From positions 1 through 47,379 of the forward strand of contig JAOPYY010000068.1 in NCBI GenBank assembly GCA_025964395.1: 47,379 bases of DNA, written 5' to 3'. Below, piece after piece: positions 26,256 to 34,057 of this stretch (its first letter is position 1; every line of letters begins with the position of its first letter). The translations under genes and the position numbers were made by a program. This stretch comes from Actinomycetes bacterium. GTDB lineage: Bacteria; Actinomycetota; Thermoleophilia; Gaiellales; Gaiellaceae. A model generated the notes under the pieces. It was not told the DNA's origin, did not search any database, and saw nothing but the letters and a program-made list of their open reading frames with translations.

Positions 26256-26606
26256 CTACTCAGTCTCAGGTGCTGCGAACTCGCCGTACGCGGCGAGCGC
26301 ACGTGGCCCCCAGACCGTCCCGGGTCCGCCGTTCATCATGATCACCACGCTCATCGCCTCGGCGACTTCGGCCTCGGTCGCGCCCTGCCGCGCCGCCCCG
26401 CGCGCGTGCGCTGAGATGCACCCGTCGCATTCTCGGGTTGCGGCGATTGCCAACGCGACCAGTTCCTTGACCTTCCCTGGCAGCGCTCCGTCGGCGAGCA
26501 CCGCACTCGACATCGCGTTGTACGCGTCGTAGACGGCGGGAATGTTCTTGCGAAGCCGGGTTGCGGGTTGCGCCAAACCCTTGGCTATGTCTCTTGCGCT
26601 CTCCAT
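26256..26606 (-). CDS. Carboxymuconolactone decarboxylase-family protein (AhpD-like)
   Basis: A 116-aa helical protein with 'LVALAIAATRECDGCISAHARGAARQGAT', the AhpD-type CxxC-xx-H active site. These proteins act as small peroxidases or disulfide reductants, using a thioredoxin-like relay. It follows the ferredoxin gene by 7 nt on the same strand and probably belongs to that P450 operon. Confidence 0.85.
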   Translation of the reverse strand: MESARDIAKGLAQPATRLRKNIPAVYDAYNAMSSAVLADGALPGKVKELVALAIAATRECDGCISAHARGAARQGATEAEVAEAMSVVIMMNGGPGTVWGPRALAAYGEFAAPETE

Positions 26607-26613
26607 CGCGCGG

Positions 26614-26808
26614 TCAGGCCTCGTTCACCGTGATCGCCCGCGCCGGGCAGAGCCTTCGGGCCAAGAGGAGATCCTCGTCCAGCTCGCTCGGTGGATTGTC
26701 GTCGAGCAACTCGACGAAGCCTTCCTCATCCTGGTCGAACACATCCGGTGCGGTCCGCACGCAGTTCCCAGCTCCTAGACATACGTCTTTGTCGACGACC
26801 ACTTGCAT
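26614..26808 (-). CDS. Three-cysteine ferredoxin ([3Fe-4S]-type)
   Basis: A 64-aa protein with Cys10, Cys16 and Cys54 in 'CLGAGNC' and 'RRLCPARAI'. Position 13 is Ala in place of the fourth cysteine, so a [3Fe-4S] cluster is expected. Ferredoxins of this kind (FdxH/Fd-1 type) reduce actinobacterial P450s. The true start is MQVVVDKD at 26808; upstream residues of the track ORF are spurious. It is directly downstream of the P450 with a 35-nt gap. Confidence 0.92.
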   Translation of the reverse strand: MQVVVDKDVCLGAGNCVRTAPDVFDQDEEGFVELLDDNPPSELDEDLLLARRLCPARAITVNEA

Positions 26809-26843
26809 GGTGTTCTCCTTTCGTTCGCTTTCCGAGTTACGGC

Positions 26844-28061
26844 TCACCAGGTGACCGGCAGTTCGTAGACGCCGTAGATCGCCCCGTCGTGCTTGAACGG
26901 CACGTGCTCGAGATCTGTGGCGAGGCGCAGGCTCGGGATGCGCCGGTAGAGGGTTCCGTAGACGACTTGGAGCTCCACCCTGGCCAGCGGTTGGCCGAGG
27001 CACTGGTGCACGCCGAACCCGAACGCCATGTGTCCACCGGCGTCGCGCTGTAGGTCCAACCGCTCGGGATCGGCAAAGGCTTGCTCGTCGCGGTTGCCGG
27101 CATCGATGGCCATCACCACGCCGTCGCCGGCGCGGATGGTCTGCTGGCCGATCTCGATGTCGGCGAGCGCCACCCGCCGCAGGCCGGAGTGGATAATGCT
27201 GAGGTACCGCAGCAGCTCCTCGACCGCGCCGGCGATCAGCTTCGGGTCGTCGGCATCCCGCAGGGCGGCCAGCTGGTCGGGGTGTTCGAGCAGGGTCAGC
27301 GTGCCGAGCGCGATCATGTTCGCCGTGGTCTCGTGGCCGGCAAGGAGCAACAAGACCCCCATGACGGCCGCTTCGCGTCGGCTGAGCTCGCCGGTCTTCA
27401 CGTGTCCGGTCGCCAGCTCGGACAGCAGATCGTCGGCGGGGTCGGCGAGCTTCTCGGCGATCAGCCGGTCGAGATAGACGAGCAGCTTGCCGTTGGCTTC
27501 TCGCGCCGCCTCCGCCGAGGATTCACGATTGACGAGAACCCTGCTGTTCGCTTGGAAGAAGTCGTGGTCGGCGTAGGGCACGCCGAGCAGCTCGCAGATC
27601 ACGAGCGACGGCACGGGCAGCGCGAAGGCCTGCACCAGGTCGACCGGCTTGGGCCCGGCCAGCATTCGGTCGATCAGACCGTCCACGATCCGCTGGATCG
27701 CCGGCCGCTGCGCCTCGACGCGCTTGATCGCGAACCGGCCGGTCACCATCCGGCGCAACCGAGTGTGCTCGGGATCATCCATGCCGATGAAGGTCCGCCC
27801 CACGGTCCCGCGCTCGCGGGCAGCGACGCTGGCGTGCGGATAGCCGGGACGTTCGGTGTCGCGACTGATCCGCGGGTCACCGAGCAGCGCGCGCTGGTCC
27901 GCCTGGCGAGTGACCAGCCACGCAGTCCTGCCATCCCAGAGGCGTACCTTGGCGAGCGGCGCCTGGGCCTGTAACCCCCGCAGAGCGGGGGGCGGGCTGA
28001 ACGGGCAGACGGGCGCCCTGGCCATCGGAAACGCAGGAATCTCAGCCGATGTGGCAGCCAT
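26844..28061 (-). CDS. Cytochrome P450
   Basis: A 405-aa soluble bacterial P450. The I-helix is 'LLLAGHETTANM', the K-helix ExxR is 'AVEELLRYLS', and the heme-thiolate motif is 'MAFGFGVHQCLGQPLAR'. It resembles actinobacterial CYP105/107-like monooxygenases. With the following ferredoxin it forms an electron-transfer pair (a ferredoxin reductase is not in the window). The substrate is unknown; nearby ring-cleavage genes hint at aromatic compounds. Confidence 0.93.
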   Translation of the reverse strand: MAATSAEIPAFPMARAPVCPFSPPPALRGLQAQAPLAKVRLWDGRTAWLVTRQADQRALLGDPRISRDTERPGYPHASVAARERGTVGRTFIGMDDPEHTRLRRMVTGRFAIKRVEAQRPAIQRIVDGLIDRMLAGPKPVDLVQAFALPVPSLVICELLGVPYADHDFFQANSRVLVNRESSAEAAREANGKLLVYLDRLIAEKLADPADDLLSELATGHVKTGELSRREAAVMGVLLLLAGHETTANMIALGTLTLLEHPDQLAALRDADDPKLIAGAVEELLRYLSIIHSGLRRVALADIEIGQQTIRAGDGVVMAIDAGNRDEQAFADPERLDLQRDAGGHMAFGFGVHQCLGQPLARVELQVVYGTLYRRIPSLRLATDLEHVPFKHDGAIYGVYELPVTW

Positions 28062-28186: not shown

Positions 28187-29305
28187 TCACGGAGGTCGAG
28201 GTCCCTCCTCCGCGGCGGTCGGCGCTTGCCAGCGGGTCTCCAGCCGCGCGAGGCGCCAGACCAGCACGGCCACGGCCCACACGGCGAGGAACAGGGCGAC
28301 CATCAGGTAGCCGGCGGTGTTGAGGTCAACCCTGGCGATCGCGTCGGTGAGACGGCCATGAAGGTGCAGTTCGGTCGAGAGCAGTCCGGCGATCTCGATT
28401 CCCCCGACCAGGAAGGCGACCGCTACCGAGACCGCGGTGATCGCCATGTTGTAGTAGAGCTTGCGCAACGGCCGGGCGAACGCCCAGCCGTAGGCAGTGT
28501 TCATGAACAGCCCGTCGGCGGTGTCGAGCAGCGTCATGCCGCCAGCGAAAAGCAGCGGGAGCGCCAGCACCGCGTACCACGCCAGTCCCTCGGTGGCGGC
28601 GGCCGCGGTGCCGGCCAGCAGCACGACCTCGGTGGCGGTGTCGAAGCCGATCCCGAAGGCGACGCCGACGAAGAACAGCTGCCGGGTATGGGTGATCGAG
28701 CGCAGCCACCGGCCGAAGAGGCGGCTCATCAGCCCGCGTGCCTGCAGCTGCGCCTCGAGCTGCGCCTCGTCGTAGACGCCGCGGCGCAGGTTGCGGAACA
28801 CCCGCACGATGCCGGCGAGCACGACGAGGTTCATCGCGGCGATCAGCCACAGGAACGTCGCTGACATCGCCGTGCCGGCGACGCTCCCGGCGACCGCGAA
28901 CCGCGAGCTCGGCCGCACCGCGGTCGTGAAGACCTCCTTGGTCGCGAACGTGATGCCGACGCCGACCAGCATCACCACGCTCGAGTGGCCGAGGCCGAAG
29001 AAGAACCCGGCGCCAAGTGGCCGCCCGCCGTCGGCCATCAGCTTGCGCGTGCTGTTGTCGATGGCGGCGATGTGGTCGGCGTCGAAGGCGTGGCGGCACC
29101 CGAGCGTCCACGCGGTCAGCGCCGCGCCGAGCCCCACCCCGAGGCCGTTGTAGTGAGGATGGCTGGGAAGCACGGCGAGCGCGAACAGCCCCCAGCCCGC
29201 CGCGTTGAGAGCGACGGCCGTGGCCAGCATCCCGCCGAGGCGGTTCCGCTCAGGGCCCGAGAGCGCTCGCCACGTGTTGACGAGACGTGCTGGTGCGCTA
29301 CTCAT
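28187..29305 (-). CDS. NiCoT-family nickel/cobalt transporter (NhlF-like)
   Basis: A 372-aa membrane protein with about eight TM helices. Signatures are 'RHAFDADHIAAIDN' in TM2, 'FFFGLGHSSVVM', 'GIGFDTATEVVLL' and 'LLFAGGMTLLDTADGLFMNTAYGWAF'. It imports Ni2+ or Co2+. In Rhodococcus the related NhlF supplies cobalt to a cobalt-type nitrile hydratase; here it follows a cobalt-type thiocyanate hydrolase cluster by 24 nt on the same strand, so Co2+ import is the likely role (inference from context). Confidence 0.92.
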   Translation of the reverse strand: MSSAPARLVNTWRALSGPERNRLGGMLATAVALNAAGWGLFALAVLPSHPHYNGLGVGLGAALTAWTLGCRHAFDADHIAAIDNSTRKLMADGGRPLGAGFFFGLGHSSVVMLVGVGITFATKEVFTTAVRPSSRFAVAGSVAGTAMSATFLWLIAAMNLVVLAGIVRVFRNLRRGVYDEAQLEAQLQARGLMSRLFGRWLRSITHTRQLFFVGVAFGIGFDTATEVVLLAGTAAAATEGLAWYAVLALPLLFAGGMTLLDTADGLFMNTAYGWAFARPLRKLYYNMAITAVSVAVAFLVGGIEIAGLLSTELHLHGRLTDAIARVDLNTAGYLMVALFLAVWAVAVLVWRLARLETRWQAPTAAEEGPRPP

Positions 29306-29329: not shown

Positions 29330-29692
29330 TCAGGCGGCTTCCAGTCGCGTACGCACCGCCACCATGCGGCGAGCCAGCGTCTCCTCCTCGATCACGCCTC
29401 TCGCGACCAGTGAGTGAGCGAGCGCAACGAGTTGGTTCTCAGGCGCCGGCAGAGCTGAGTACATCGCCTGCGACAGGAGGTCCTCATCGCGCCGGCGCTC
29501 GAGCAGAGGCAGGGCCTCTCCGTTCCTGTCCAACGCGTCACACATCCCATCCAAGCTGGACTGCCAGGGCGGCAGCGGGTTCGTTACGCCGTGCTTCTCT
29601 GCGACTCGCGCCCACACCTGTCCACGCGCCGCGATCCGGTCGAGCGTCGGGATCCTGACGGCGCTGACATTCTGGCCCTGCGCTTCACTCAT
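29330..29692 (-). CDS. Thiocyanate hydrolase/nitrile hydratase maturation protein (P15K-like)
   Basis: A 120-aa protein: 'WARVAEKHGVTNPLPPWQSSLDGMCDALDR' and 'ALAHSLVARGVIEEETLARRMVAV'. Its position directly after the gamma subunit matches P15K, the cobalt-delivery factor of Thiobacillus thioparus thiocyanate hydrolase, and its C-terminal helix pair resembles the N-terminus of nitrile hydratase beta subunits, as nitrile hydratase activators do. The start at 29692 has GGAG upstream; residues before it in the track are spurious. The gap to scnC is 13 nt. Confidence 0.75.
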   Translation of the reverse strand: MSEAQGQNVSAVRIPTLDRIAARGQVWARVAEKHGVTNPLPPWQSSLDGMCDALDRNGEALPLLERRRDEDLLSQAMYSALPAPENQLVALAHSLVARGVIEEETLARRMVAVRTRLEAA

Positions 29693-29705: not shown

Positions 29706-30431
29706 TCAATAGTTCGCCGCCGCACGTATCGCCGGCCGCACGGCGCGCACCGCATTCCATGTCACACCCGGCCTCGGCCGTGCCACGCCGATCAAGCAGT
29801 CGCGCGTCACGATCTCGGCCAGCTGATCTTCGCTCCATCCCTCCGTCCCGGCGGGCCTGACGGGGAGCACCAAGAACCTGTGCTTCTGGTTGGAGTCTTC
29901 GACCCGAACCTCGACATCCTCAGGAAGGTGAAGGCCGAATTCGCCGAGCACCTGCCGTGGCCATCGCACAATGCGGCGACGGTAGTTCGGCGTCCGATAC
30001 CACTCTGGCGAATTGCCGAGGATCGGTCGCGGGTAACACGAGCACAGCGTGCAGACCACGACGTGGTGCAGATTCGGCGTGTCCTCGAGAACATGCAGCG
30101 CGGTGAAATCGCTGGGTGTCCCGAAACCTGTCGGCTGAAGCCAGTCGACTCCCACCGCCCGGCTCGCCGCGATTGCATCTTCCAGGGCCAGCCGCTTGAA
30201 CTCCGGGTCCAGCCACGCCCTCGCAACCAGCCGCGCGGCCGGCGTCGGCCCGATCTGCTCCGCGAACTCGGTGAAGTGACGGTGATCCTCTGCGGTGAAC
30301 AGACCCTTCTCGATCGCGAGCTCCCGCACCGCGATCTCCAGCACCTCGAAGTCGGTGATCTCCTCGACCATCGGCGCATGGGGATGAAGGTCGTCGTGCC
30401 CCGTCTCGTGCGTGTCGTCTCCATGCGCCAT
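29706..30431 (-). CDS. scnC: Thiocyanate hydrolase gamma subunit (cobalt-binding)
   Basis: A 241-aa protein. The metal claw is C127-T-L-C130-S-C132 in 'VVVCTLCSCYPRPILG', with Cys130/Cys132 expected to become Cys-SO2H and Cys-SOH as in nitrile hydratase and SCNase. The 'YPRP' after the claw and 'SPEWYRTPNYRRRIVRWPRQVL' are SCNase-like; cobalt nitrile hydratases read differently ('PWPVLGLPPAWYK'). The N-terminus is His/Asp-rich ('HETGHDDLHPHAP'). Thiocyanate hydrolase converts SCN- plus water to COS and NH3. The call rests on remembered family sequence and should be confirmed by search. It follows the fused subunit gene by 4 nt. Confidence 0.85.
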   Translation of the reverse strand: MAHGDDTHETGHDDLHPHAPMVEEITDFEVLEIAVRELAIEKGLFTAEDHRHFTEFAEQIGPTPAARLVARAWLDPEFKRLALEDAIAASRAVGVDWLQPTGFGTPSDFTALHVLEDTPNLHHVVVCTLCSCYPRPILGNSPEWYRTPNYRRRIVRWPRQVLGEFGLHLPEDVEVRVEDSNQKHRFLVLPVRPAGTEGWSEDQLAEIVTRDCLIGVARPRPGVTWNAVRAVRPAIRAAANY

Positions 30432-30435
30432 CTCG

Positions 30436-31296
30436 CTAGTCCTCTCTCGTTGCTTGACTATCGGCCGGCTCGAGCCAACGCTCCGGAATCTCCGTCTGAA
30501 GGCTGTCGCCCGAACAGCCGGCGTACGGCTCCCAGAGATCGGCCATCCTGAAGCGCACGATGTAGAACCACTCGGGCTTCTGGTCGTCGCGATCGAACGC
30601 CTCGTCTTCCGGGGCGATGCTCTCGTATGAGACCTTCACGACGGTCCCGCGCGCGCCTCTCACATACTCCTGGGTGCGCGTGTAAAACACCGTCGGCAGA
30701 CCGCGGACGCGCACCTCGTCGCCGGCGCCGAACCTCGGCTTGCCGGCCATACCCGCGTAGCACTGCGGATCTCCCTTGCCCACAGCCACCACGTGGTGGT
30801 CATTTCTCGCGACGGCAGCGGGGTCGCCAGCGGCGCGAGGCGCCGCGTCCGGCAGCTCAGCGCCGATCCCTTCGGAATAACGGCGACGCACCTCGTCGAC
30901 TCGCTCGATCAACTCGCCAAGCGTCACGTGGTGCTTCTCGACCAGGACGCGCGCAGCAGCCAGCAGCCAGCGACCGTAGTACGGAAAACCCAGGTACACG
31001 GTCTTGCCGACGTCGACGTTCTGCATCCTGCGACGTTCCTCCGATACCCAGACGCCGCGCCAACCGAGCACCTCGCACGTCACATAGGTGTTGAGCTCCC
31101 ACTGCTCTTCCTCCTTGAGCAGGAACTCGGCCGGGGCACTAGGTACACCGCCGACATCGTGCGACGTCTTCATGTACGCGCGAAACCGCGCGTGATCGAT
31201 CTGATCCGGCGTCGGCGCGTCCTGGACCTCGTGAAACGCCGGGCGCAGCTGACCGACAAGCTCAAGGTCGCTCATCACATCGGAGCGATCAGACAT
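30436..31296 (-). CDS. Fused thiocyanate hydrolase beta-alpha subunit (NHase-beta-like)
   Basis: A 286-aa protein that joins the two small SCNase subunits in one chain. Residues about 1-150 match SCNase beta ('SHDVGG', 'KEEEQWELNTYVTCEVLGWRG', 'EERRRMQNVDVGKTVYLG', 'PYYGRWLLAAARVLVEK'). Residues about 171-280 match SCNase alpha ('GKGDPQCYAGMAGKPRFGAGD', 'FYTRTQEYVRGARGTV', 'WFYIVRF', 'DLWEPY', 'LQTEIPERWLE'). A short linker (about 150-170, 'AAPRAAGDPAAVARND') replaces the gene boundary. Nitrile hydratase beta has the same order in one chain, so this is a structural intermediate. The Arg-rich 'EERRR' contains residues expected near the claw. The ribosome site GGAGGTGAACAGG is strong. Confidence 0.85.
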   Translation of the reverse strand: MSDRSDVMSDLELVGQLRPAFHEVQDAPTPDQIDHARFRAYMKTSHDVGGVPSAPAEFLLKEEEQWELNTYVTCEVLGWRGVWVSEERRRMQNVDVGKTVYLGFPYYGRWLLAAARVLVEKHHVTLGELIERVDEVRRRYSEGIGAELPDAAPRAAGDPAAVARNDHHVVAVGKGDPQCYAGMAGKPRFGAGDEVRVRGLPTVFYTRTQEYVRGARGTVVKVSYESIAPEDEAFDRDDQKPEWFYIVRFRMADLWEPYAGCSGDSLQTEIPERWLEPADSQATRED

Positions 31297-31463
31297 TCCT
31301 GTTCACCTCCGCAGCACACCGCAACACTTGGCACGGCCGCTCACCTCGATTTTCCCTCCGATCGAGCGTGAAACACGCACCGGCCCCCACACGTGTTGTC
31401 CCGTGGTCGAGGCGCATCTGGCCCTTGGGGCCCTTCAGCGAAACGGTCAACCCGTGTTCAATC

Positions 31464-32375
31464 GTGGACGTGCGGGTCGTTAGCTTCGTCGGGCCGGACG
31501 GCCCTCGCCTCGGGGTTGTCGAGGGCGACCTTGTCGTCGACCTGACCGCGGTCGATCCGGCCGCTCCCCGCGATCTGCGTAAGGTCTTGTGCGCCGGCGG
31601 CCTGCCGGAGCTCCAGCGGCTCGTGCTCGGTGCGACGCCGGGCACGCGGCGGGCTCTCGACGAGCTGCAACTCGGGCTCCCGGTGCCGTGCCCCGGGAAG
31701 GTGTTCTGTTTGGGTTTGAACTATCGCGACCACGTCGACGAAGGGCCGTTCGAGCGCCAGGAGTACCCCGCGTTCTTCATGCGCGGCACGACGTCGCTGG
31801 TCTCCCATGGCGACCCGATCATCCGCCCGGCGTCGTCGGTGGCGCTCGATTACGAGGCGGAGCTCGCCGTCATCATCGGAAGGCGCGCTCGCCATTTGGG
31901 GGAGGAGGATTGCGGCGAGGTCATCGCGGGCTATACCTGCTTCAACGACGGGTCGGTGCGTGATTACCAGCAACACACGACCCAGTGGACGGTCGGCAAG
32001 AACTTCGACCGGACGGGCGCTCTTGGGCCGGCGATGGTCACGCCCGACGAGCTGCCGTCGTTCGCGACGGGTCTGCGGATCCAGTGCCGGCTCAACGGCG
32101 AGGTCGTCCAGGACAGCTCCACCGACAGGATGATCTTTTCGGTTCCCGACGTGCTCGTCTACCTGACGTCGGCTGCCACGCTGTACCCGGGAGACGTCGT
32201 CGTGATGGGCACGCCGGGCGGGGTGGGCATGTCGCGCAACCCGCCGCTGTGGATGAAGCACGGCGACGTCGTCGAGGTCGAGATTGAGGCCGTCGGGACC
32301 CTCGTGAACCGCGTGAAGGACGAGGTGGCCCCACTGGAGAAGCCCGAACTGCGCGAGACATACGTCGACCGTTAG
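31464..32375 (+). CDS. Fumarylacetoacetate hydrolase-family protein
   Basis: A 303-aa enzyme. 'VFCLGLNYRDHVDE', 'PAFFMRGTTSLVSHGDPI', 'DYEAELAVIIG' (metal-binding E..E), 'GYTCFNDGSVRDYQ', 'GPAMVTPDEL' and 'TGTPGGVG'-like 'VVMGTPGGVG' define the FAH/HpaG family, which cleaves or isomerises oxo-acids after ring opening. The start is uncertain: GTG 31464 is used; the ORF track's ATG 31368 would extend 32 residues of non-homologous sequence. It is divergent from the thiocyanate hydrolase operon and leads the ring-cleavage genes. Confidence 0.85.
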   Translation: MDVRVVSFVGPDGPRLGVVEGDLVVDLTAVDPAAPRDLRKVLCAGGLPELQRLVLGATPGTRRALDELQLGLPVPCPGKVFCLGLNYRDHVDEGPFERQEYPAFFMRGTTSLVSHGDPIIRPASSVALDYEAELAVIIGRRARHLGEEDCGEVIAGYTCFNDGSVRDYQQHTTQWTVGKNFDRTGALGPAMVTPDELPSFATGLRIQCRLNGEVVQDSSTDRMIFSVPDVLVYLTSAATLYPGDVVVMGTPGGVGMSRNPPLWMKHGDVVEVEIEAVGTLVNRVKDEVAPLEKPELRETYVDR

Positions 32376-32492
32376 TGGTGGTCCCGATCAGCCTCAGCTT
32401 CGAGAACGGCCCTGAGTCCGATGTCGCCGACTTCGTGCTCGACACGCTGGCCTAACCCCGGACACCGAGAACGAGAAGGAGGAGAAACGCCG

Positions 32493-33512
32493 ATGTCCGT
32501 GCCGAAGACGAACCTGCGCCCGGCAGTCCGCTTCCTGCGCGCCAGCCACGCGAGCTTCACCTCGCGCGACCTCGACAAGAGCCGCGAGTTCTACACCGAG
32601 GTGCTCGGGCTCCTGGTCAGCGACGAGGACAACGACACGCTCTACCTGCGCGGGCTCGAGGAGCGGGCGCATCACAGTCTCACGATCAAGCGCAGCCAGG
32701 ACGAGCCGGCCTGCCTGCGCGTTGGAATGCGTGTTCACGACGAGGAGGAACTGGAGCGCGCGAAGCACACCTTCGAGCGGCACGGGTTGCCGTGCCGCTG
32801 GGTCGACGAGCCCTTCCAGGGGCGCACGCTGCACACCGTCGACGTCGTGGGGACCCCGCTCGAGATCGTCGCGTCGATGACGCATCAGCCGCGGCGCGAC
32901 AGGCAAGTGCAGATGCATAAGGGGGCGGCGGCCCGTCGCTTCGACCACTACCAGATCACTGTGCCCGACGTTCACAAGGCCGCCGTGTTCTACACCTCGC
33001 TCGGCTTCCGCATCGCCGATTACATGACGATGGGGGAGCACCCGGTCGGCGTGTTCCTGCACGTCAAGAACACGCCCTACGACCTTGTCTTCTTGGAGCG
33101 GGACGGCCCCGCCTTTCACCACTACGCCTACATCGTTCCGGATGTCCAGTCGATGCTGCGCGCTTGCGACACCATGGGCGAGCTCGGCTGGGGCGAGAAC
33201 GTGGAGTTCGGCCCGGGCAAGCACTCCGTCGGCCATTCCTACTACGTCTACGTGCGCGATCCTGACGGGCACCGCGTCGAGCTGCTGCTGCCCCCGATCG
33301 TGTACATGGACGGCGACGACCCGCCGTCGGTCTTCGACGTGCGGACAGTCAAGAGCCCCCAGGTCGCCTGGGGTCTTCCGCCGCGCGCGTCGTGGTTCGT
33401 CCACCGCTCGCGCTTCCTCGACTGCGAGGTCACGCCCTCGCTTGGCGACGGCGACGGCTTGACGCTCGAGCAGTACCTCGTCATCACCGACAGACAAGCC
33501 ACCGGAGAGTGA
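32493..33512 (+). CDS. Extradiol ring-cleavage dioxygenase (VOC family, HPCD-like)
   Basis: A 339-aa two-domain VOC enzyme. The C-terminal domain holds the 2-His-1-carboxylate site: His152 (RRFDHYQI), His209 or His210 (FHHYAYIV) and Glu263 (HRVELLLPP), close to the spacing of homoprotocatechuate 2,3-dioxygenase. It cleaves a catechol-type ring next to the two hydroxyls using Fe2+ or Mn2+. A ribosome site GAAGGAGGAG precedes ATG. It lies 118 nt after the FAH gene and directly before a CMD-like gene, a common meta-cleavage arrangement. Confidence 0.9.
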   Translation: MSVPKTNLRPAVRFLRASHASFTSRDLDKSREFYTEVLGLLVSDEDNDTLYLRGLEERAHHSLTIKRSQDEPACLRVGMRVHDEEELERAKHTFERHGLPCRWVDEPFQGRTLHTVDVVGTPLEIVASMTHQPRRDRQVQMHKGAAARRFDHYQITVPDVHKAAVFYTSLGFRIADYMTMGEHPVGVFLHVKNTPYDLVFLERDGPAFHHYAYIVPDVQSMLRACDTMGELGWGENVEFGPGKHSVGHSYYVYVRDPDGHRVELLLPPIVYMDGDDPPSVFDVRTVKSPQVAWGLPPRASWFVHRSRFLDCEVTPSLGDGDGLTLEQYLVITDRQATGE

Positions 33513-33514
33513 TC

Positions 33515-34057
33515 ATGGCCCGCGTTCGGTACCCCAAGCGAGACGAATATCCAGACGCCTACCTCGCCGCCTACGACCGGATGCTGCGCGAGCGTGGCGA
33601 CCCGCCACTCCACATCTTCGCGGCGCTAGCCAACATCCCGAACCTGCTCGACCCGCTCCTGACCTTCACGCGCGAGATGCGAGAGGGGGCTGTCATAGAG
33701 CGGCGGCTGCGCGAGCTCGCGATCATGACGGTCGCACTGGTCACGGGGGCAACGTACGAGTTCAACCACCACTGGAACTCGGCTCTCGAAGCCGGGCTGC
33801 GCCGCGAGCAGCTGGAGCAGCTCGCCGACGCCGAGACCTCGGATGCCTTCGACGAACGGGAGCGCGCCATCGTCCGCTACGCCCGCGAGGCGACCGTGTC
33901 GCTCAACGTCTCCGACGAGACCTGGTTCGCCCTGCGCAGGCACTTCTCCGCGCGCGAGAGCATGGATGTCGTGATGGCGGTGGCCTGGTACAACGCGGTC
34001 GCCCGGATGCTGTTGCCGTTGGAAATCGAGCTGGAGGACTGGTACGAGCGGCACTAG
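33515..34057 (+). CDS. Carboxymuconolactone decarboxylase-like protein
   Basis: A 180-aa helical protein with 'RRLRELAIMTVALVTGATYEFNHHWNSALEAGLRREQLEQL' and 'FDERERAIVRYAREATVSLNVSDETWFAL', the CMD/AhpD fold, here without the CxxC. The His-His in 'FNHHWNSA' replaces the redox cysteines and resembles CMD-like decarboxylases/hydratases rather than peroxidases. ATG is 2 nt after the dioxygenase stop. Its 3' end overlaps the end of the small convergent gene at 34054. Confidence 0.82.
   Translation: MARVRYPKRDEYPDAYLAAYDRMLRERGDPPLHIFAALANIPNLLDPLLTFTREMREGAVIERRLRELAIMTVALVTGATYEFNHHWNSALEAGLRREQLEQLADAETSDAFDERERAIVRYAREATVSLNVSDETWFALRRHFSARESMDVVMAVAWYNAVARMLLPLEIELEDWYERH

Follow-up and report, generated by a model that had tools for sequence, protein, structure and literature searches.

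The fused gene and its operon

The thiocyanate hydrolase (SCNase) of the textbooks is the three-chain enzyme of a single bacterium, and the present locus, where two of those chains appear to be encoded as one, raises two questions: is the product an SCNase, a nitrile hydratase (NHase) or something between them, and which arrangement of chains came first? The window (i.e., the whole stretch of DNA analysed, 47,379 nucleotides) carries an operon of four same-direction genes that lie 4, about 13 and 24 nt apart, in the order fused scnBA, scnC (gamma), activator and NicO transporter. The anatomy, the family of each chain, the conserved residues and this gene order are direct observations at the locus, whose features are as follows:

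31310-31303, minus strand: Shine-Dalgarno GGAGGTGA of the fused gene, strong, 6 nt ahead of the ATG (read from sequence)
30436..31296, minus strand: fused thiocyanate hydrolase beta-alpha subunit (scnB-scnA, one ORF), 286 aa, ATG start, intact
30847..31296, minus strand: SCNase beta-like half, residues 1-150 (HDVGG and EERRR motifs; phmmer to 2dd4_B; SCNase-only columns, see below)
30808..30846, minus strand: junction, residues 151-163; the homologous Thiobacillus thioparus alpha N-terminus (RTHHAKMATGIGDPQC) aligns just past it
30463..30807, minus strand: SCNase alpha-like half, residues 164-278 (SH3-like barrel, FYTRT motif; phmmer to 2dd4_A; Foldseek)
29706..30431, minus strand: thiocyanate hydrolase gamma (scnC), catalytic, CTLCSCYPR metal site, 4 nt from the fused gene (TIGR03887, 2dd4_C)
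29330..29692, minus strand: probable activator of SCNase (P15K-like metallochaperone) with homology to the N-half of beta; translation probably begins at ATG 29692, about 13 nt past the gamma stop
28187..29305, minus strand: predicted NicO-family nickel/cobalt transporter (PF03824, 286 bits; TIGR00802, 331 bits, slightly below its cut-off)

Compared against solved structures with phmmer, both halves of the fused chain were far nearer to SCNase than to NHase beta: residues 3-150 matched T. thioparus SCNase beta (2dd4_B) with 175.6 bits (E 1.3e-50) and residues 164-278 SCNase alpha (2dd4_A) with 129 bits (E 1.8e-36), vs. 46 bits (E = 5e-11) for the top NHase beta match. A beta-like and an alpha-like half in one 286-aa ORF, as first proposed from the letters of the sequence, are thus borne out. 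Pfam places NHase_beta_N at 42-144 and NHase_beta_C at 184-277, and the chain does not pass the NHase-beta equivalog TIGR03888 (78.8 bits vs. a cut-off of 152.2). The AlphaFold model, built from an input alignment without two plasmid rows, is confident in the alpha half only (mean pLDDT 56 for the beta half), and its top Foldseek matches in the PDB are the 2dd4 SCNase alpha chains (TMt 0.82-0.83), with complete NHase beta chains coming next. The domain order is indeed that of NHase beta, as had been pointed out; it simply follows from homology across the whole beta chain of both enzymes.

The gamma passes the SCNase equivalog TIGR03887 (388 bits, cut-off 291.45), does not reach the NHase-alpha equivalog cut-off, and keeps the metal-ligand residues C-x-L-C-S-C, with 69% identity to T. 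thioparus gamma (2dd4_C, E 7.5e-112). Further down the operon, the product of the third gene, about 120 aa long if translated from the probable ATG, scores 112.9 bits against the beta-N HMM and has no Pfam match over cut-off. Homologues adjoin other SCNases, and those on plasmids, in Azospirillum and Roseomonas, occur solely next to fused SCNase genes. It is probably a P15K-type activator, as expected from its anatomy; Kataoka et al. 2006 (as cited in PMC3511329) state in their title that functional SCNase expression is promoted by P15K. The NicO transporter probably supplies cobalt. No COS hydrolase is evident next to the operon, and the sole beta-carbonic anhydrase found in the genome is a better fit to ordinary carbonic anhydrases than to COS hydrolase.

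Directly downstream of the operon and on the same strand (26256-28061, minus) lie P450, ferredoxin and carboxymuconolactone-decarboxylase-like genes, and a divergent cluster (31368-34057, plus) encodes an aromatic ring-cleavage module of FAA hydrolase, HpaD-like extradiol dioxygenase and a CMD-family gene. Separately, an activator gene adjoining alphaproteobacterial scnC is absent from the gene table of the records in several cases (L114, 7118-8020, and plasmid hits H57 and H58).

Thiocyanate hydrolase or nitrile hydratase

To place the protein among its relatives, beta, alpha and gamma domains were taken from 151 rows (a few loci being fetched twice). The residue following CSCYP is Trp in 28/28 canonical NHases (beta in one ORF), whereas 94 fused SCNases, the T. 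thioparus enzyme and 27 three-gene enzymes have Arg; the window gamma keeps Arg, as T. thioparus does. The gamma-homologue of one three-gene enzyme (L099, genome G050) has Lys there (CTLCSCYPK), the sole case in the 151 rows. Trees of beta+alpha and of gamma agree that canonical NHases are a separate group (support 98-100), and that SCNases are one clade (support 100) within an Arg-type group whose other members always encode beta by two genes (28 three-gene loci). In the tree of all three parts the SCNase clade again has full support (100/100), with the window protein inside it, and neither half groups inside ordinary NHase beta.

The three-gene NHase-like group is large and mostly actinobacterial, with CTLCSCYPR and a two-gene beta, and comparable loci on plasmids carry a nitrile hydratase annotation. 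Such loci occur among relatives of the window genome (L082, L086, L087, L093, L096-L099, L105) and beyond (L126-L133, L135, L136, L138-L140, L143, L145). Judging from subunit sizes alone, our guess is that they are of the toyocamycin NHase type (PMC8574189).

Residues present in at least 97% of SCNases and in <10% of the other groups were considered SCNase-only. The window protein has those of beta (Lys35, Cys48-Glu49, Arg62, Asn67) and of alpha (Tyr36, which is His in 56/56 other rows), and the window gamma has the insert PTGFGTPSD together with Ser137, Arg142, Trp153 and Lys179 (all in domain numbering). Given these residues, the enzyme most probably hydrolyses SCN-, yielding COS and NH3. 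As judged by score, tree position and lineage-specific residues, the fused protein is an SCNase.

Two other readings have to be weighed against this assignment. The sequence-only reading had seen in the fusion an architecture between the two families, i.e., an evolutionary intermediate of NHase and SCNase with a mixed or shifted substrate range, and the NHase domain order, the two-chain organization and the matches to both Pfam NHase_beta domains would suit it. However, the protein sits inside the fully supported SCNase clade rather than at its base, canonical NHases form their own group (98-100), and the closest non-SCNase relatives are split-beta enzymes rather than two-chain NHases, which is the opposite of what an NHase intermediate predicts. 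With SCNase-only residues conserved as well, a shifted substrate range finds no support, nothing points to a new substrate, and we regard an intermediate as very improbable. Alternatively, the protein could be a three-subunit NHase-like enzyme (toyocamycin NHase type) whose fusion is incidental and whose substrate is an organic nitrile: SCNases and three-gene enzymes form one clade (98-100), and share the Arg following CSCYP, Arg64 of the beta domain and further columns that are absent from NHase. Against this, the window gamma reaches 388 bits on the SCNase model where three-gene relatives stay at about 185-228 bits, under the cut-off, and the window system has both the gamma insert and the SCNase-only residues, which makes a fused nitrile-converting enzyme of this type highly unlikely.

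Our main reading, resting on homology, is therefore that the locus encodes a cobalt-type thiocyanate hydrolase of two polypeptides, a fused beta-alpha chain and a catalytic gamma, with a probability of roughly 0.87. Its activity, cobalt, subunit stoichiometry and physiological role we infer. By homology to the T. thioparus enzyme, gamma would bind one low-spin Co(III) via the CTLCSC claw with oxidised cysteines, inserted by the activator and supplied by the NicO transporter. The fused chain would close the active site with Arg89 and Arg207, numbered Arg63 (beta) and Arg38 (alpha) in the domain alignments, where Arg is kept in every group; from alignment offsets and named mutants, these are the approximate counterparts of NHase beta Arg52 and Arg157. 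The reaction would be SCN- + 2 H2O -> COS + NH3, with a likely role in nitrogen acquisition or thiocyanate detoxification.

Distribution of the fused form

A scan of GTDB genomes with gamma as the query found 303 relatives. Ranked by similarity to the window, the best 80 were kept, so that counts are biased towards actinobacteria; nearly all of these 80 loci come from mycobacteria and other Mycobacteriales. Beta and alpha lie in one ORF at 79 of these best 80 of 303 loci, and in the exception (L010) the break falls inside the beta domain, not at the linker. Since the same one-ORF arrangement recurs in 79/80 independent loci from other genomes, a sequencing error that joined two genes is excluded, and so is a chimera. 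The inter-domain linker spans 22-34 aa across fused loci (mostly 26), and the Ala/Pro-rich composition remarked on at first is not general among relatives. Among 397 genomes sampled from the window's phylum (own genome included), nine have an SCNase gamma over cut-off, and all nine loci are fused. The fusion also adjoins annotated scnC on two alphaproteobacterial plasmids, where the RefSeq name of the fused gene is "SH3-like domain-containing protein". The fused form is thus the common actinobacterial SCNase and no rare intermediate.

Several side observations emerged from these loci. CALCSC replaces the CTLCSC metal-site motif in 41 fused SCNase rows (e.g., L033, L117, L021), including many mycobacterial gammas; Ala is odd at this position, the second residue of the NHase motif having been discussed for metal choice. 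One genome titled Methylocystaceae (G101; L021, L110, L113) carries two SCNase copies whose placement well inside the mycobacterial clade is fully supported; this MAG is probably mislabelled or contaminated, or else the copies reflect a recent transfer. A Microvirga terrae plasmid (L150) has the gene order alpha-like, gamma-like, beta-N-like, so that it may lack the beta-N half or use an activator-like gene in its place.

Fused SCNase was not described in the open-licence papers covered by our full-text literature search, and no assay of any fused SCNase was found in that literature. Two transcriptome papers annotate MSMEG_6266/6267 of M. smegmatis as SCNase beta/gamma, with expression up under nitrogen limitation or in a PII-pathway mutant (PMC4617892; PMC11001197); judging from the two-gene layout, MSMEG_6266 is presumably the fused chain.

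The genome to which the window's 47-kb contig is assigned is fragmented, about 3.2 Mb in size and 89% complete, and probably metagenome-assembled. For flanking genes at 11.9 kb and 38.9 kb, close same-genus homologues exist (up to 89% and 71%); the contig thus belongs to the genome, and MAG contamination is unlikely. Only one of 101 genomes in the relatives search (own included) has an SCNase gamma over cut-off, namely the window's own; either acquisition by transfer or widespread loss is suggested by this. In the three-part tree, the window branch lies deep within the actinobacterial fused group.

Fission or fusion

The idea that the fused gene could inform how two- and three-chain enzymes arose from one another is supported: the phylogeny of fused and split forms does bear on their interconversion. 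T. thioparus is the sole split SCNase in the trees; no further one turned up around the Methylocystaceae-labelled genome beyond its own two copies, or in a viral-contig scan. In the tree of beta, alpha and gamma together (450 columns), T. thioparus is placed between alphaproteobacterial and actinobacterial fused forms (99/94), as in the gamma tree (96). Such a position favours a fused chain ancestral to SCNases that was later split in T. thioparus, as does the homology of T. thioparus alpha, which runs on into the actinobacterial linker (RTHHAKMATGIGDPQC aligns with RNxHHxxAVGKGDPQ). The latter alignment is compatible with adjacent genes having been joined, or one gene split, at a single point. 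On the other side, constraining all fused forms to one clade costs 7.6 log units, and a single fused clade is not rejected because the AU test gives p = 0.058; the trees hold one split SCNase sequence only, and the alphaproteobacterial linker aligns poorly. We would give fission even odds.

The alternative is a split state ancestral in the Arg-type lineage, with independent fusions in Actinobacteria and Alphaproteobacteria. No one-ORF beta occurs in Arg-type enzymes outside the SCNase clade (28 three-gene loci), and with split outgroups two fusions equal one fusion plus one fission in step number (two changes on the tree). The same ends would, however, have been joined twice with similar linkers (26 and 34 aa), a weak argument given that such joining is simple for adjacent genes. 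We consider two fusions possible, with the odds against them, and lean slightly towards fission. The full fission scenario, with an Arg-type beta chain that was split, then fused, then split again, a fused two-chain SCNase as the ancestral form and the three-chain T. thioparus enzyme as a fission product, is one that we advance tentatively, at somewhat less than even odds.

Implications

Nearly all SCNases reached by the genome scan (the best 80 of 303 loci, similarity-ranked) are two-chain, and half of the enzyme is concealed by automatic annotation under the name "SH3-like protein". Public genomes had contained the fusion before; the novelty lies in recognizing it, not in the sequence type. 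Within mycobacteria SCNase occurs widely, and published transcriptomes there indicate nitrogen scavenging; a natural fusion may be easier to express for thiocyanate clean-up.

Comparison with known systems

The window system is homologous over all three subunits to the SCNase of T. thioparus THI115 (ScnB, ScnA, ScnC; PDB 2dd4/2dd5), shares its CTLCSCYPR metal-site motif in a gamma of 69% identity, and has a probable counterpart of its activator protein, P15K (named in the reference list of PMC3511329). The two differ in that T. thioparus has beta and alpha as separate chains, whereas the window has one chain with a short linker; as nearly all SCNases sampled are fused, we take chain number to be a feature of the type enzyme, not of the SCNase clade. 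The actinobacterial SCNase loci (L002-L081, and by annotation MSMEG_6266/6267) share the two-gene layout of fused beta-alpha followed by gamma, identities reaching 68% for the fused chain and about 85% for gamma, although the window copy forms a separate deep branch and sampled kin of its genome are without SCNase.

Outside the clade, the three-gene NHase-like enzymes (e.g., the Streptomyces plasmid locus L116) have the same three domains and the Arg following CSCYP and are the closest SCNase outgroup, but encode beta in two genes and are without the SCNase-specific residues. Cobalt NHase (e.g., Pseudonocardia thermophila, 1ugp) is likewise a two-chain enzyme with a CTLCSC site, has beta N- and C-domains homologous to those of the window system, and comes with an activator and in many cases a cobalt transporter; it differs from the window system in the Trp following CSCYP, a beta-chain identity of about 22-25% and its placement in a separate clade.
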